Virus record (IMG/VR): IMGVR_UViG_3300044533_000998
Coordinates: 1 to 34,815 of that record
Source: a virus
Length of the DNA: 34,815 nucleotides
Strand: one strand, 5' to 3'
Part shown: piece by piece, positions 15,955 to 34,815 of the stretch
Numbering within the stretch: position 1 is the first letter of the stretch
Layout of the letters: each line of letters begins with the position of its first letter
The notes under the pieces: model-generated
Database searches by the model: none
What the model saw: only the letters and a program-made list of their open reading frames with translations
What the model was told of the DNA's origin: nothing
Position numbers and translations under genes: made by a program

Positions 15955-17331
15955 TTACTCTAAATTCCTAAACATTGATTGAACAAATATAGACAATCCT
16001 GCTAAACTATCGGGTGCATCATCGTTTTTATTACCACCTTCTTTTGAAAATGATAATAAATTGTCCATAAACTGTATCTGCTCGGGACTATTCGTGTTGA
16101 CAAATATCATGTTGTTCATAATGAACGCACTCTGCATAATTATTCTAGTCATCTTGTTCGTACTATTGTGTACTTGCAATACTTTTGCTTTGGTATGGTT
16201 TTGTAACTGCCTAGCGAACATTGCTCCCATTGCATTACTTTCTACACGTACATACGATGCGTTCCATTGGTTCAACTTACTTGCTACTAGAGGAATTGTT
16301 ACATCTGTGTTGTCTTTGCTATAAGCGTAATCTATGACATATATTTTACTATCAATAACTGCTGCTATAACACATGCAGTATAATCCTTTCCTTGATCTG
16401 ATACATCGACATATCCGATACAACCTTCAATTCTCGATACCTCTTTGCCTTCTTCATAGTATTTGGATATTTTAAGGAATTCATCATTCTCGATAGTTTG
16501 AATATTACCAAACAAGCGACCTTTCATATCTACAGGTTCTTGCATGTATTCTGCCAACCATATTTCTTTTGGAGTTCTTCTACGCTTTTCGATGTACTCT
16601 TCTGTGGTCATTGCAGTTTCGCAGTACGATTTGTTGTCATCGGTCATTGCTTTAATAACGATAATCTTATCATACAAACCTTCTTTCATGTTTCTACCGA
16701 TCACATCATTTATTGACCAACGTGTACCAACATCTACTCTAGCACAACCCGACTCGAAACGTGAATCATGCGTTGCTTCCTTCCATTGAATAATCTTATC
16801 ATTTGTTCCATCAGACAATGCTTCTTCTAGTCCTTTGTATAAGTCATCGGTAATACCAACTTTGGTTGCTCCAAACCCGATAATCGTTCCACCTACACCC
16901 GCACCGAAGTAACCAACCATCTTACTGCTTGTTGTATTCCAACCTTGCAGGTTTGATTTGTTTGGAGAAAGTCTAGTTTCAAATACTTCTTGGAACTTCT
17001 CTCCTGTTACTATACTTCTAACATCGTAACTGAACTTTAGATACAATGTCGCTGTACAAGTGTTACGCATTACTGACTCACTAGGATTCCTACCTAGAGT
17101 CCATGCACAGAACACAGACACCATATATGATTTACCTGCTCTAGGTGGCATACATACTGCTAGTGATTTGATTGTGCCTTCCTCTATTTCTTGAAGTGCG
17201 TCTGCTACTTCTTTAAGGAATGGTCGCTTAATGAAAAAATCGTAATCTAGGTATAAACAAAACTGCCAAAGATTTCTCCTAGACAGTTCCTGTTTCAATA
17301 TCAATACCGCTTCCTCTTTTTTAGTCCTCAT
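15955..17331 (-). CDS. terL: Terminase large subunit
   Basis: The gene encodes 458 residues: the packaging motor ATPase and nuclease. The N-terminal ATPase has a Walker A at residues 61-68 (MPPRAGKS) and a Walker B-like VGITDD at about 158-163. The C-terminal RNase H-like nuclease begins near residue 303 with GYVDVSDQGKDYTACV (Asp309), has VRVESNAMG (Glu364), and ends with KNDDAPDSLAG (Asp437/438/441). The gene overlaps the small terminase by 11 bp. All motifs expected for an active enzyme are visible. I cannot tell from sequence whether it cuts at cos or pac sites. Confidence 0.95.
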   Translation of the reverse strand: MRTKKEEAVLILKQELSRRNLWQFCLYLDYDFFIKRPFLKEVADALQEIEEGTIKSLAVCMPPRAGKSYMVSVFCAWTLGRNPSESVMRNTCTATLYLKFSYDVRSIVTGEKFQEVFETRLSPNKSNLQGWNTTSSKMVGYFGAGVGGTIIGFGATKVGITDDLYKGLEEALSDGTNDKIIQWKEATHDSRFESGCARVDVGTRWSINDVIGRNMKEGLYDKIIVIKAMTDDNKSYCETAMTTEEYIEKRRRTPKEIWLAEYMQEPVDMKGRLFGNIQTIENDEFLKISKYYEEGKEVSRIEGCIGYVDVSDQGKDYTACVIAAVIDSKIYVIDYAYSKDNTDVTIPLVASKLNQWNASYVRVESNAMGAMFARQLQNHTKAKVLQVHNSTNKMTRIIMQSAFIMNNMIFVNTNSPEQIQFMDNLLSFSKEGGNKNDDAPDSLAGLSIFVQSMFRNLE

Positions 17332-17695
17332 CTTTTACCAAGTCAAGTAGTTCTTCTGTAGACAACCCACTTAAGTCTGGCTTATCTTTATTGAATTCAA
17401 ACTCTTGTCTTTCGACATATCCTCTATTCTTTCCTTTGGTCTTTAGATAGAAGATTAACAACGTGGCATTTTCATTCTTGATACCTTTCAACAACTGACT
17501 TTCTGCAAAGTCTAGATTACGTTCTTCTATATCCTTGACATGCGAATGAAACGACTTGTCCTCTGATATCCAATTGTAATAGGTTGTTCTTGCTATGTTA
17601 CATCGATCACACGCTAGAGATATATTCCCTAACGTGCTTTTCAATGCTTCAATAAAATTTTCTTTTGCTTTTACTGTTCGTTTTTGATCAGACAT
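17321..17695 (-). CDS. terS: Terminase small subunit
   Basis: The gene encodes 124 residues. The N-terminal part contains a helix-turn-helix (FIEALKSTLGNISLACDRC followed by ARTTYYNWISEDKSF), the pattern of phage small terminases and phBC6A51-like DNA-binding proteins. The C-terminal part is charged and probably mediates oligomerisation and contact with TerL. It recognises the packaging site, which often lies in or next to its own gene. A clear promoter lies 39 bp upstream of the start, and the large subunit gene overlaps the 3' end by 11 bp. Confidence 0.88.
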   Translation of the reverse strand: MSDQKRTVKAKENFIEALKSTLGNISLACDRCNIARTTYYNWISEDKSFHSHVKDIEERNLDFAESQLLKGIKNENATLLIFYLKTKGKNRGYVERQEFEFNKDKPDLSGLSTEELLDLVKDED

Positions 17696-17733: not shown

Positions 17734-17765
17734 CAAATATAAATAAAATTTAAAATAGTGCTGTT
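17734..17765 (-). promoter_or_regulatory. Late promoter ahead of the terminase genes
   Basis: On the minus strand, TATATTTG at 17741-17734 is a perfect Bacteroidota -7 box (TAnnTTTG). The usual -33 TTG is not obvious at the expected distance, where the sequence is T-rich and overlaps the end of the upstream gene. The leader (17733-17696) is not the ACAAAAC type seen at the early promoters. It probably drives the packaging, head and tail genes. Confidence 0.65.
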
Positions 17766-18424
17766 TGCTCAATAGTTGGTCCTACAATTTCATCATTGAT
17801 GAACTCTTGTCGAATTGGTTCCCACCCTTCAAGCATTACTCTATTGCCAATTGCTAAATGGTTTTCGTAATGTCCTGATAATAAGGTACAATCGAGTCCC
17901 ATTCTTTTGCCTTCGTATGTGTGTCCATCGAGTACGTTTTTTGGCATACCTTGCCATTCGTGGTCGAGTATTGTTCTTACGAATTCTTTTGGTTCGGGTT
18001 TGATAACGTACCAAGTCCAAAGACAATTGTAAACTCGTGGATTAATCCAAGATATTTGGGTTTTTTGTCGGATTTCTCGTGTTATTGAGTCCCCTTGTAG
18101 TTTGCCCGTACTACATGCTTCTTCTGCGTAATCGAAAAAGGGTTGTGCGTATCCTCTTCCATGAAGTGTGTTGCGTTCACAAAGAGATTGCCAATCTTGA
18201 TTTAGAATGTCGATGTAACATTCGTTTAAGTCCTTGAATGAATGAGGAAAAACATCTTCGAATAGTGAGCCGACTAATATAGATGCCAACCCCGATTTTG
18301 ATAGATTTTTTGCCGATTCTTCAAGTCCTTGTCTCCAACCAATGCGAACCGATTTGATTGCCAATGACTTCCAAGCCGATTCCGAATAGCCATTAATTAA
18401 ACGTAATTTTGATTTTGCTTTCAT
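17750..18424 (-). CDS. Orphan protein resembling a RarA/MgsA-type C-terminal domain, with clamp-binding-like tail
   Basis: The ATG at 18424 (MKAKSK) gives 224 residues; a further upstream frame runs through the promoter and is not used. The N-terminal SESAWKSLAIKSVRIGWRQG, SILVGSLFEDVFP, and the later DGHTYEGKRMG and GWEPIR segments recall the helical C-terminal part of RarA/MgsA-type AAA+ proteins, without any ATPase domain. The last five residues, QTALF, fit the QxxLF clamp-binding pattern. The gene has its own promoter and stands between the glycosyltransferases and terminase. A role at replication forks or in recombination is a guess; the resemblance is from memory and unverified. Confidence 0.8.
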   Translation of the reverse strand: MKAKSKLRLINGYSESAWKSLAIKSVRIGWRQGLEESAKNLSKSGLASILVGSLFEDVFPHSFKDLNECYIDILNQDWQSLCERNTLHGRGYAQPFFDYAEEACSTGKLQGDSITREIRQKTQISWINPRVYNCLWTWYVIKPEPKEFVRTILDHEWQGMPKNVLDGHTYEGKRMGLDCTLLSGHYENHLAIGNRVMLEGWEPIRQEFINDEIVGPTIEQTALF

Positions 18425-18475
18425 ATTGTTTTGTTTTGTTATAATCAAATATACGTATAATTTATTGAATAACAA
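18425..18475 (-). promoter_or_regulatory. Promoter-leader module 1
   Basis: Minus strand: TTG at 18475-18473, 19 bp, then TATATTTG at 18453-18446, a full match to the Bacteroidota promoter. The leader contains ACAAAACAAAAC and ends at the ATG of the RarA-like gene. It is the only copy of the repeated module located outside the early region. Confidence 0.85.
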
Positions 18476-18479
18476 TGAG

Positions 18480-19202
18480 TTATATCTTAATTTTTGTTCT
18501 CCATTTCAAGTTTGTTGACTTCAAATCCTGCACTATTGAGTCTCCAAAACTCTTCTTCAAATGCTTGTACGATTCCAAAGTGCTTTCTTCATTTCGAATA
18601 TCTTCGCATCCACCAATGTTATAATTGTTCGTCTTGAATTCAAAGAAGAACCTTTTGTCAATCCACATCTTGCGATTGTAGTGTAGGTTCAATAAGCACA
18701 TGTATTCATCTTCTCCGATCATCGTTGGTATATTCGGGAAGTGCAGCCTATCATCATTGATAATACCCATTGCACATCCTTGAATAAATCCATTCATCAT
18801 TATTGGTCTAGTTACATTGTAGTGTAAAGGACTAGGACTTTTGGAGAAACCGAAGTACTTGATCTCGGTTTGTTCTTTAAGCATGAAGTATGTATCAAAC
18901 AATATACCTGTTACCTCATCAGGACTTAACTTGTCTCTTGATTCTTTTGGTGGCAGATACGTTCTTCTCATTGCCTTGATATCATCGTCTAGCATAAATA
19001 CATCTCCAAACTTATTCTTTGTCCATTCTCTCTTTGCACTTATTCCTATGATGTCATCGCTATGTGTAACGATCTCTACATTCGGATTGTGTTCCTTGTA
19101 CAATTCTTCTTGCGACTTTGGTACAATTAGACATGCGTCATTAACCACTTTTGTAGTGGTAACAACGTCATGTCTTTTATGTGATAGTATGGTAACTTTC
19201 AT
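18480..19202 (-). CDS. GT-A glycosyltransferase, TET/JBP-associated (GREB1-like) type, copy 1
   Basis: The gene encodes 240 residues. Visible features are SHKRHD at residues 7-12, PKSQEELYKEHNP at 28-40, KFGDVFMLDDDI at 64-75 (a DxD-type metal and nucleotide-sugar site), and GEDEYM in the second half where GT-A enzymes place their catalytic acid. This set matches the phage glycosyltransferases described in association with TET/JBP oxygenases and related to the GREB1 C-terminal domain, which are predicted to glycosylate hydroxymethylated bases. The start overlaps the paralogue's stop by one base (TGATG). No hydroxylase or hydroxymethylase is encoded here, so the acceptor is unknown. The family call is from motif recognition. 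Confidence 0.8.
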   Translation of the reverse strand: MKVTILSHKRHDVVTTTKVVNDACLIVPKSQEELYKEHNPNVEIVTHSDDIIGISAKREWTKNKFGDVFMLDDDIKAMRRTYLPPKESRDKLSPDEVTGILFDTYFMLKEQTEIKYFGFSKSPSPLHYNVTRPIMMNGFIQGCAMGIINDDRLHFPNIPTMIGEDEYMCLLNLHYNRKMWIDKRFFFEFKTNNYNIGGCEDIRNEESTLESYKHLKKSFGDSIVQDLKSTNLKWRTKIKI

Positions 19203-19945
19203 CAGAATTTAATTTTTAGAGTTTTCTCCCATTTCATGATGTTTGGTTTCACCGGACTTGGTTTCTTTGGAATGATACTATCTCCAAAGTGTTTCTTCAA
19301 GTACAAATAGGTTTCTTTTCTTTTCTCTTCCGTTCTGTAGTCAGCAACACCGCCTTGTCTATGTTCTGTTTCAGCGAATGCAAATGCAAATCGATCGTCA
19401 ATCAAACACTTTCTATGGTAGTATGCATTGATAGCATTTAAGAAATAATCATCTCCTACGAAGTCCCAATAATCGGGAAAAAATATCTTGCTGCCTTTGA
19501 TTAGTCCGTATGCACCACCTGTAATAAATCCTCTAGTCTTTATTGGTTGACCGCCTGTGTAACTTACAGGGTTTGCAGATCTATTGAATCCGAATAAGTA
19601 CACACCTGTTTCTTTTGCCATATGGTACAAATCTTCTATCAATCCTTCGATCTCTTCGGGTTTCAATACTCGTGTTTTTTCTCCACCGCCTTGATAAACC
19701 GTTGTCATGCTCATGATATCATCATCTATCATAAAACAATCCCCAAACTTTTCATAGATCCATTGTCTCTTTGGACTTGAACCTTTTACTTCATCGGGGT
19801 GTGTTACATAATTCAAATCAGGATTGTGCAATTTGTAATCCTCTAATTGACTCTCGGGAATACAAACTACACAATTTGGAATTATCTTATGAGTAATGAT
19901 AGTGTCATGTCTTTTATGACTTACGATTACTTTAGTTAATGCCAT
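19202..19945 (-). CDS. GT-A glycosyltransferase, TET/JBP-associated (GREB1-like) type, copy 2
   Basis: The gene encodes 247 residues, a paralogue of the downstream gene. Shared elements are SHKRHD (9-14), PESQLEDYKLHNP (30-42), KFGDCFMIDDDI (66-77) and a GDDYFL motif in place of GEDEYM. The C-terminal KHFGDSI is matched by KSFGDSI in the other copy, so the proteins align end to end. The start overlaps the methyltransferase gene by 10 bp. Divergence between the copies suggests two successive or alternative sugar transfers instead of simple dosage. The DNA-base acceptor is an inference from the family; sugar transfer to protein or another target is possible. Confidence 0.82.
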   Translation of the reverse strand: MALTKVIVSHKRHDTIITHKIIPNCVVCIPESQLEDYKLHNPDLNYVTHPDEVKGSSPKRQWIYEKFGDCFMIDDDIMSMTTVYQGGGEKTRVLKPEEIEGLIEDLYHMAKETGVYLFGFNRSANPVSYTGGQPIKTRGFITGGAYGLIKGSKIFFPDYWDFVGDDYFLNAINAYYHRKCLIDDRFAFAFAETEHRQGGVADYRTEEKRKETYLYLKKHFGDSIIPKKPSPVKPNIMKWEKTLKIKF

Positions 19946-20535
19946 AGGTCAAGGATATTATGGTAGATTTCCTTCGGCATTTTTCTTGGTGCTTTAATGA
20001 AAATCATAATTGTTACATCATTGATATCCAAGTGTTTTACTGCGATATATCCATTCATAATGTCGCAAACATCTTGTCGTCTATAGTCATGATGATGGAA
20101 TGGGTTGTACTTTACACTTGGCTTGTTTGGAAAACTTATAATCGCAATGTTTGGATCTAACATCTCTACATACTTGTAGAACTCACTTGGATCTTTGATA
20201 TGCTCAATCAATTCCAATGCAATCATTACATCCACTCCATCTTTTTCAAGGTGTTTCAAATGGTCTAGACTATTGGTCAATTCAACCTTGTTGTTGTATT
20301 GATATTCATTTCTACCGAATTCTAGACTTTCCTTGTTGATGTCAAATGCAGTTACCTTACTTACATCTGGGTTTTCTGACAACAATTTAGTGCCATACCC
20401 AGTACCACAACCTAGATCTACTACGTTTCCGTATACAAATCTTCTAATCAATAAATATCTTTCAATATGGTCCACCCATCTTCTATGGTTAATTAACTTA
20501 TCGATTTCTTCTTGTTTTAAATATATTCTTTCCAT
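19936..20535 (-). CDS. Class I SAM-dependent methyltransferase
   Basis: The gene encodes 199 residues. Motif I is VVDLGCGTGYGTKLL at about residues 38-52, motif II is TAFDINKESLE, and DVMIALELIEHI is the post-motif region of UbiG/UbiE-like enzymes. There is no DPPY/NPPY motif or Cys-Pro motif, so it is not a standard adenine-N6 or cytosine-C5 DNA methylase; small-molecule or sugar O-/N-methylation is more likely. It starts 1 bp after the ParB-like gene stops and overlaps the first glycosyltransferase. Context suggests it works on the product or precursor of the glycosyl modification. Confidence 0.88.
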   Translation of the reverse strand: MERIYLKQEEIDKLINHRRWVDHIERYLLIRRFVYGNVVDLGCGTGYGTKLLSENPDVSKVTAFDINKESLEFGRNEYQYNNKVELTNSLDHLKHLEKDGVDVMIALELIEHIKDPSEFYKYVEMLDPNIAIISFPNKPSVKYNPFHHHDYRRQDVCDIMNGYIAVKHLDINDVTIMIFIKAPRKMPKEIYHNILDLWH

Positions 20536-20536
20536 C

Positions 20537-21178
20537 TTAATTCAATATGTCTTTTGCGTTTAAAATAAATGACTTACCTAGAAACGAGTTCTTGTAACTT
20601 TGTGCTTTCTGTGGGAAGTTAAACTTTGTTCTGATTGCTGCTTCTTCCGTTTCCGATTCAACAATGATTATAAATGCATTGTGTTTTTCATCATACACAG
20701 GAATAATTGGATACACACAATTGCTATCATCGTATTTACTTTCGATCTCTTCGGCTGATAATTCTTTATCGTCTTTTACCAATTCATCAAATCCCCAATG
20801 CTCTAGGATATCTTCGCCCCAATCTTCTGTGAACAATTCATCCAAGTCCCAACTACCGAAACTTACATTATCTTTAATGATGAATTCTTTCTGTTTCTCG
20901 ATACTTAAGTTCTTTACTACTTGAATGTATACTTCTTGCACATTAAGTTCCTTACATGCCTTCAATCGCATATTACCACCCAATACAATCATCTCTTCAT
21001 TGACAATGATTGGTCTGATCTCTAACATCTCGGGAAATTCAGCAATTGAATTTACAAGTTTCTTGAACTTTGCATTTTTAATGTATCTAGGGTTTTTTGG
21101 TAAACCTTCGACTTGACCATCATTTGAATGTACCGACTTTATGGGTACTAGCATCTTTTCTGATATTTCAAACTTCAT
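20537..21178 (-). CDS. ParB-like (sulfiredoxin-fold) domain protein
   Basis: The gene encodes 213 residues. The N-terminal half has ParB-domain features: MLVPIKSV, RPIIVNEEMIVLGGNMRLKA (the GGNMRLKA box near residues 68-75) and FIIKDNVSFGSWDLDEL, a stretch typical of phage ParB-like proteins that precede or are fused to DNA modification enzymes. The methylase usually fused in those proteins is absent. The C-terminal 80 residues form a small separate domain ending in ILNAKDILN. It is the first gene of the four-gene modification-like operon. It might bind DNA or act on nucleotides or phosphate; a chromosome-partition role is unlikely in this context. Confidence 0.85.
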   Translation of the reverse strand: MKFEISEKMLVPIKSVHSNDGQVEGLPKNPRYIKNAKFKKLVNSIAEFPEMLEIRPIIVNEEMIVLGGNMRLKACKELNVQEVYIQVVKNLSIEKQKEFIIKDNVSFGSWDLDELFTEDWGEDILEHWGFDELVKDDKELSAEEIESKYDDSNCVYPIIPVYDEKHNAFIIIVESETEEAAIRTKFNFPQKAQSYKNSFLGKSFILNAKDILN

Positions 21179-33909: not shown

Positions 33910-34815
33910 TTAATAGTAAGTACGTTTATTCTTGAACTTATCGCCAACAGTACATGTCAATGATGCTTTTCTAGCAAACTCATCGGGATACTCAATTTTC
34001 GGACTTTCTTGTACAATTACAGGAAGGTCTAAATATCTGTATGAATGATTATGCACGTTGTAATCCGAAATGTACAATTCATTTTCAGACAACAAATACA
34101 ATTCTACCAATGGTCTAATTATACATTCATCTGCAGGATCTGTGATGATTTCATACGAATTTAGATTTTCACGTAGGTTACGTTTCATTTGTCTATCTCC
34201 ATAAATCAAATTATCGATCTCATAGTTTGGCTGTCTAAATCCTATAAATCCATAGAATCTAAATGTACTTGCTACGTTACTACCACTAAAGTTAATACCT
34301 TCGATTTCATGATATCCATCAAACTTCGCACTTACTCGTGCAGTTTTCATAGCATTCTCGATCGAGTATGGTTTCAACTGATATGAACCCCAACTAATAG
34401 TCCCAATGATGCCAGAGATGTTATATTCAATGTACAATTCATAACAACCAACACCAATATCTGAAAGAATAATTCCCCAATTTACTGTTGCATAAAATGC
34501 ATTAGGCTCATTGACAAATTCTATTGCATTTAATTGTTGTGTAAATCCTGTTTCATTGTTTTTGATGTAGAACGCAGCAGAATCATTCTGATCGGATAAC
34601 TTAATCCAAAAACTTGTCAAATCGTTGGTCCATGTTTCTTTTGATTTTTTATCGCCAAGTACTAATTGCTCACAACAACAATCCTTCCAACCTCGTGCTT
34701 GTTCTTCAAAATTTTCGGGTAATTTAATAGACTTATATTCTTTGAATATTCTATCCTCGTTTCGACAATCAACTTCACATGCTATACCAATAGTTTCATC
34801 TACTCTCCAACCTTT
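33910..34815 (-). CDS. Tail protein, C-terminal part of the gene split by the contig ends
   Basis: Reading continues from the left contig end (codon 142 onward) through 34688 to the stop at 33910; the piece from 34689 to 34815 duplicates bases 1-127. The segment includes CCCEQL, then a region of alternating strands (AFYATVNWGIILSDIGVGCY, then ELYIEYNISG). The C-terminal half has many Tyr and Asn. No TTG or other internal start at 34620 is needed once the contig is closed. Probably a tail-tip or fibre protein of about 400 residues. Confidence 0.82.
   Translation of the reverse strand, partial: KGWRVDETIGIACEVDCRNEDRIFKEYKSIKLPENFEEQARGWKDCCCEQLVLGDKKSKETWTNDLTSFWIKLSDQNDSAAFYIKNNETGFTQQLNAIEFVNEPNAFYATVNWGIILSDIGVGCYELYIEYNISGIIGTISWGSYQLKPYSIENAMKTARVSAKFDGYHEIEGINFSGSNVASTFRFYGFIGFRQPNYEIDNLIYGDRQMKRNLRENLNSYEIITDPADECIIRPLVELYLLSENELYISDYNVHNHSYRYLDLPVIVQESPKIEYPDEFARKASLTCTVGDKFKNKRTYY
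34689..34815. repeat. Contig-end overlap, right copy
   Basis: Identical to bases 1-127; see the left copy. Removing one copy closes the circle and keeps the tail gene in frame. Confidence 0.9.

Follow-up and report, generated by a model that had tools for sequence, protein, structure and literature searches.

Organisation of the locus

The window analysed here is a whole stretch of viral DNA of 34,815 nucleotides (IMG/VR record IMGVR_UViG_3300044533_000998), and this work is centred on a run of four genes on its minus strand, from position 21178 to 18480, that encodes a ParB-like protein, a methyltransferase and two glycosyltransferases of the TAGT type. An earlier note on this DNA had described such a four-gene set, and all four open reading frames are present, in the order ParB-like protein, methyltransferase, TAGT_b and TAGT_a. 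The products are a ParB/Srx-fold protein of 213 amino acids (20537-21178), a class I S-adenosylmethionine (SAM) methyltransferase of 199 amino acids (19936-20535; Methyltransf_11, 8.8e-11), and two GT-A glycosyltransferases of family PF20691: TAGT_b, with 247 amino acids (19202-19945; PF20691 1.3e-9, PHROG 842 9e-17), and TAGT_a, with 240 amino acids (18480-19202; PF20691 2.7e-13, PHROG 842 6e-21). The genes are tightly packed, with a gap of 1 nucleotide between ParB and methyltransferase, an overlap of 10 nucleotides between methyltransferase and TAGT_b and an overlap of 1 nucleotide between both TAGT genes. Downstream of this run there is a gene encoding a protein of 241 amino acids, followed by the genes of the small and large terminase subunits. 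As discussed below, this system probably adds a sugar to the DNA of the virus in a way that has not been described so far.

The TAGT transferases

The TAGT of phage T6 adds glucose to glucosylated hydroxymethylcytosine (HMC) in DNA (PMC13216743, PMC13390438). Both window proteins belong to the same family, as had been claimed for them: TAGT_a and TAGT_b score 50.7 and 38.8 bits, respectively, above the PF20691 gathering cut-off of 27.5, and both match PHROG 842. They are tandem paralogues, 42% identical and with the same catalytic residues. All 12 residues that are invariant in a nine-member alignment (the window pair, T6 ggt and six relatives) are held by both of them, and those common to TAGT_b and T6 ggt include DDD, D166 and GG; once the TAGTs of cultured viruses are added to the alignment, the invariant core consists of D74, D75, D76, D166 and G199. 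The AlphaFold model of TAGT_b (pLDDT 87.8) matches viral TAGT models of the BFVD database with TM scores of 0.71-0.78, including a Klebsiella phage beta-glucosyl-HMC-alpha-glucosyltransferase. As modelled, the window transferases are GT-A fold enzymes that show a DxD-type motif as well as conserved acidic residues and a conserved GG. A sequence search of the PDB gave no useful structural homologue for TAGT or ParB.

The ParB-fold protein

The ParB fold proposed for the first gene is borne out by matches to many ParB-type PHROGs (17622, at 6e-41, 940, 498 and 620; PHROG 498 corresponds to ParB-MTase) and by an AlphaFold model that matches the structures of ParB-N, Noc and CTP-bound ParB, while Pfam PF02195 stays below threshold. 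The protein shows the P-motif GGNMR, in which R71 is the arginine that contacts the nucleoside triphosphate (NTP), and this arginine is kept in 51 out of 63 TAGT-linked ParBs. Its C-terminal domain is typical of the ParBs linked to TAGT. A canonical ParB partition protein was considered and rejected: the protein has only 213 amino acids, profile and fold searches detected no helix-turn-helix (HTH) domain in it and no ParA gene adjoins it.

Proteins with this fold have been related to DNA modification in several ways. ParB-methyltransferase fusions are known from phages, and NTP is bound by ParB-fold proteins (PMC12704722); ParBc proteins accompany the DNA carboxymethyltransferase CmoX (PMC12783734); besides, the GmrSD enzymes, which cut glucosylated DNA, also contain ParB-fold domains (PMC12839542, PMC4619093). 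The closest ParB among annotated phages is that of Leptospira phage LE4 (47% identity). In this phage (L004:3965-5586) ParB adjoins an ABC-GNAT protein, another possible case of ParB-coupled DNA modification, the ABC-GNAT type being predicted to acylate DNA bases (PMC7824862). Bacteroides phage BS-TP3 (L003:4974-6982) encodes a ParB and then a ParB-Methyltransf_23 fusion directly before the terminase, an arrangement that parallels ParB-TAGT with a methyltransferase replacing TAGT. In seven loci (L017, L019-L021, L023, L028 and L029) the single-domain ParB upstream of TAGT is preceded by a second protein of the ParB cluster, of about 410 amino acids, which in L021 has two ParB-like domains.

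Recurrence of the ParB-TAGT pair

The four-gene region could have been taken for an isolated oddity; it contains, instead, a recurrent module. When viral contigs were scanned with an alignment of TAGTs, 80 loci emerged (81 with Javan291, which is the base of the counts), whilst the same scan with the single TAGT_b sequence gave no match. ParB was found directly upstream of TAGT in 67 of the 81 loci in the first pass, with overlapping genes in 59 of them. The 14 exceptions were searched again, revealing an adjacent ParB in 10, a nearby ParB in 2 and a contig that begins inside TAGT in the remaining 2. ParB thus lies just upstream of TAGT in all 79 testable loci, in 77 of them adjacent and mostly overlapping, so that the conservation of gene order in other phages, which the earlier note had named as a check, holds for this pair. 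The reciprocal scan, carried out with the ParB C-terminal domain alone, found TAGT in 75/75 new loci, some of which are on contigs already present in the TAGT scan and do not represent 75 new phages. Pairwise distances correlate (r 0.70-0.77, a value reached by 0 of 999 permutations). In Bacteroidota genomes ParB is present in 22 of 23 loci and a third protein, MgsA_C, in 20 of 23, at times kilobases away. The terminase clusters vary between loci and the module is constant; a TAGT-TAGT tandem like that of the window was found only in L005 among the loci examined.

A distant TAGT branch is present in cultured viruses. The TAGT from Lactobacillus delbrueckii phage c5 matches PF20691 at 4.5e-54, yet it is barely detected by the window-type profile. 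The order in c5 is cos, ParB, TAGT, a small gene with a weak match to the terminase small subunit, and TerL. Overlapping ParB-TAGT genes are also found in L. gasseri phage phi jlb1, Escherichia phage vB_EcoS-673R7, Nocardia phage NTR1, a Porphyromonas gingivalis phage and the haloarchaeal virus HHTV-2, and in the cultured viruses the terminase follows the pair either immediately or after some genes. Phage phiKT1024 was not counted as having the pair, the gene annotated there as ParB having failed the ParB profile. The C-terminal end of c5 TAGT (L298:835-1713; amino acids 218-282) is similar to a segment of a PHROG of the ParB family (1e-5), perhaps due to a shared module or to an old recombination. 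For c5 and HHTV-2, no data on restriction were found.

The MgsA_C-like partner

A stand-alone MgsA_C protein, matching PF12002 at about 2e-11, is encoded in around 65 of the 81 loci. When MgsA_C itself was used for the scan, 74 of the best 80 loci (out of 378) contained both TAGT and ParB, and two further loci of these 80 had a TAGT cut at the contig edge. In the window, the gene next to TAGT_a (17750-18424, minus strand) encodes 224 amino acids if read from its ATG; the frame is likewise open from a TTG at 18475, which gives the longer form of 241 amino acids. The profile alignment of this protein and its homologues (L005, L225 and L226) with the MgsA_C family of phages spans 176 columns, with a pairwise E of 1.4e-4 but an hhalign probability of 52%. 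Related to this, the homologue is located directly downstream of ParB-TAGT-TAGT in L005 and close downstream of ParB-TAGT in L226. From profile alignment and synteny, the window protein is probably a divergent counterpart of the MgsA_C partner rather than a proven member of that family, and the functional unit is probably larger than the four genes originally described.

Methyltransferase and variable neighbours

The window methyltransferase matches only families of the Methyltransf_11/25/31 type and has no N6_N4, C5 or Dam-type domain, in agreement with its earlier description as a SAM methyltransferase of non-DNA type. Its PDB matches are generic class I enzymes and Hen1; given the operon in which the gene lies, 2'-O-methylation of RNA was considered and discarded. 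A known defence system was also discarded, PADLOC having returned only generic matches of methyltransferase type. Homologues of this enzyme are found in the ParB-TAGT operon of L050-L052, at a different position.

Depending on the phage group, and in varying positions, ParB-TAGT has as neighbours genes for a PIG-L deacetylase, WbqC, a second GT-A enzyme and two unrelated groups of methyltransferases. Such changing neighbours are the pattern that would be expected of enzymes tailoring a transferred sugar; the window methyltransferase is probably one of them, and the tailoring set of this phage would be the methyltransferase together with the second TAGT. PIG-L accompanied by WbqC, or by two unassigned genes, upstream of ParB (L008, L014, L015, L025, L034 and L037) suggests amino-sugar chemistry beside the pair. 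The genes next to ParB in L025, which by eye recall an ATP-grasp enzyme and a decarboxylase, gave no family match and are not claimed as such.

The genome around the module

The window carries an exact direct terminal repeat of 127 bp (positions 1-127, identical to 34689-34815), and it is consequently a complete phage genome, in which the absence of a gene is meaningful. The terminase genes, which are outside the system, are both on the minus strand: the small subunit (17321-17695) has a weak PHROG match and occupies the same position in 23 loci, and the large subunit (15955-17331) matches PHROG 38 at 3e-73. The rest of the genome is ordinary, with genes for an SSB-like DUF3127 protein, an exonuclease, Erf, RadC, NinG and DnaB, and with head and tail genes assigned by size and position. 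A promoter-like element, with the core TAATTTCGTATATTTAC followed by a AAACAAAACAAA-like sequence, occurs in seven copies (0.6 expected by chance) between 22046 and 31616, upstream of minus-strand early genes; these copies are probably the early promoter set of the phage in a host of Bacteroidota type.

Search for acceptor-making enzymes

Well-characterised DNA glycosylation begins at a hydroxyl group of the base. The window sequence had been said to encode no recognised hydroxylase, and searches of the complete genome agree. Tet_JBP was matched in none of 46 records, window included, in none of 8 cultured viruses and in none of three host genomes, with the TET of phage Nigel found as positive control. 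Enzymes of thymidylate synthase or hydroxymethylase type were absent from 38 records, again including the window (T6 was found as positive control), and among the 8 cultured viruses there was a single thymidylate-synthase-type match, in a phage of 191 kb. The window has no DNA methyltransferase of C5 or N6/N4 type; these enzymes were rejected as general acceptor-makers, being present in only 4 and 3 of 38 records, respectively. The gene content of 19 ParB-TAGT phages, compared by blastp clustering (from which very divergent shared genes may escape, and in which some records were incomplete), comprises ParB in 19, TAGT in 18 and MgsA_C in 13, and the next families reach 7. No conserved gene was left in this comparison as a candidate hydroxylase, and a dedicated phage hydroxylase is unlikely because only ParB, TAGT and MgsA_C are widely common to these phages.

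These results bear on the conventional pathway, in which a hydroxymethylated pyrimidine, supplied by the host or by an unrecognised phage enzyme, would be glycosylated by TAGT as in T6 and in the TET phages. All the characterised TAGT chemistry takes place on DNA derived from hydroxymethylcytosine (PMC13216743; TET-glycosyltransferase phages are summarised in PMC12730594), which speaks for this explanation; nevertheless, it is improbable in view of the negative searches and of the 19 phages without a common candidate gene. Both sources of the acceptor that the earlier note had contemplated are consequently disfavoured: an otherwise uncharacterised window protein, since no other gene is common to the ParB-TAGT phages, and the host, since the hosts are as diverse as Bacteroidota, Firmicutes, Actinobacteria, Proteobacteria and haloarchaea.

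Proposed function and its alternatives

DNA modification is, by analogy, the most likely role of the module, because the TAGT from T6 acts on DNA, because similar ParB domains accompany or are fused to DNA-modifying enzymes and because sugar-tailoring enzymes are exchanged beside the pair. The interpretation that we hold, with rather more confidence than doubt, is a ParB-directed glycosylation of phage DNA whose core is ParB-TAGT(-MgsA_C-like). Binding of the ParB-fold protein to viral DNA would depend on a nucleotide, and the TAGT-dedicated C-terminal domain of this protein would bring the GT-A transferase to the DNA, where a sugar would be moved from a nucleotide sugar onto a DNA group before packaging. 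In the window phage, the second TAGT could extend this sugar and the methyltransferase could cap it. The MgsA_C-like protein, which presumably stems from the tail of RarA/MgsA, a fork-associated ATPase, may tie the reaction to newly replicated DNA, and the product could protect the genome from host nucleases. Because no dedicated hydroxylase is encoded, the acceptor would be either a canonical DNA group that is glycosylated directly or a group made by a protein of the module in an unforeseen way. The first option, in which ParB-TAGT would glycosylate a canonical base or native DNA group without prior hydroxylation, ParB acting as an NTP-switched carrier, would define a new class of hypermodification in bacterial and archaeal viruses; it is put forward tentatively, as a possibility that is more exposed to error than the general scheme.

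Several facts weigh against ParB-directed DNA glycosylation. The acceptor of the T6 TAGT is an existing sugar and not a base; the P-motif arginine is absent from 12 of the 63 TAGT-linked ParBs; the 241-amino-acid window protein is linked to MgsA_C weakly, by profile; and data on biochemistry or nucleosides were found for none of the ParB-TAGT phages. Besides, some phages can do without the module, because in phiLdb (L299:848-1713) a frameshift relative to c5 splits TAGT into two open reading frames, as a natural loss variant, and in Ld17 the upstream ParB is missing, so that this phage was counted only as having TAGT without ParB. The closest folds in the PDB are a protein transferase and a teichoic-acid transferase (GnT-I and TarP), the matches are weak, and GT-A folds use many acceptors.

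The closeness to GnT-I and TarP also speaks for a different function, as doubtful as the conventional pathway, in which the transferases would modify a protein (terminase, portal or a host factor) or a surface glycan, ParB being a regulator or an unrelated neighbour. A eukaryotic relative, GREB1, reportedly glycosylates a protein, and the terminase genes adjoin the module. According to the earlier note, a structural resemblance of the transferases to enzymes that modify proteins or the cell wall would refute its reading; such matches do exist, and they are not decisive, because their TM scores are about 0.5 or less with root-mean-square deviations mostly near or above 10 angstrom, and because the T6 TAGT has itself a TarP-type GT2 as closest cellular fold (PMC13216743). 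The ParB subtype, moreover, is dedicated to TAGT and belongs to a kind that accompanies enzymes of DNA modification, no recurring polysaccharide export genes appear among the families common to the 19 phages, and the module stays while the terminase clusters differ. Least probable is a site-specific mark for packaging or self/non-self recognition, with ParB reading a site near cos/pac where TAGT would glycosylate and bulk DNA looking unmodified: many ParB proteins bind specific sites and the module is beside the terminase, in c5 also beside cos, but no HTH was detected in the window ParB, and close relatives whose module is disrupted or reduced are still able to package.

In a survey from 2026, 288 of 753 phage genomes had solitary TAGT genes, which were termed potentially novel transferases (PMC13216743); these genes now gain a partner and a hypothesis, with an obligate ParB, often MgsA_C and no hydroxylase. 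Should native DNA prove to be the acceptor, this would amount to base chemistry of a new kind and to a novel counter-defence of phages. The question can be put to the test directly in small cultured phages that have the pair, such as L. delbrueckii c5, L. gasseri phi jlb1 and HHTV-2.

Comparison with known systems

The nearest characterised enzyme is T6 ggt, which is phage-encoded, belongs to PF20691, shares the invariant residues and acts on DNA (PMC13216743). However, T6 has a dCMP hydroxymethylase and an alpha-glucosyltransferase, and its ggt adds a second glucose, whereas neither a hydroxymethylase nor a GT-B enzyme was found in the window, where an obligate ParB partner is present instead. 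The phages with cytosine hypermodification by TET and glycosyltransferases resemble the ParB-TAGT phages in having glycosyltransferases, sometimes paired, in a context of DNA modification, but the latter lack both a TET/JBP dioxygenase and a recurrent C5-methyltransferase. With the C-terminal domain of MgsA/RarA (PF12002) the likeness is that of the phage MgsA_C proteins, which match this family; unlike MgsA/RarA, they are stand-alone proteins without the AAA+ ATPase and are genetically tied to ParB-TAGT. Finally, the ParB-methyltransferase fusions, the ParBc proteins with CmoX and the ParB next to ABC-GNAT have in common with the present module a ParB-N domain that goes together with a modifying enzyme, either as the product of a separate gene or within one fusion protein (PMC12704722, PMC12783734), whereas here the partner is a GT-A glycosyltransferase and ParB has a C-terminal domain of its own that is linked to TAGT.

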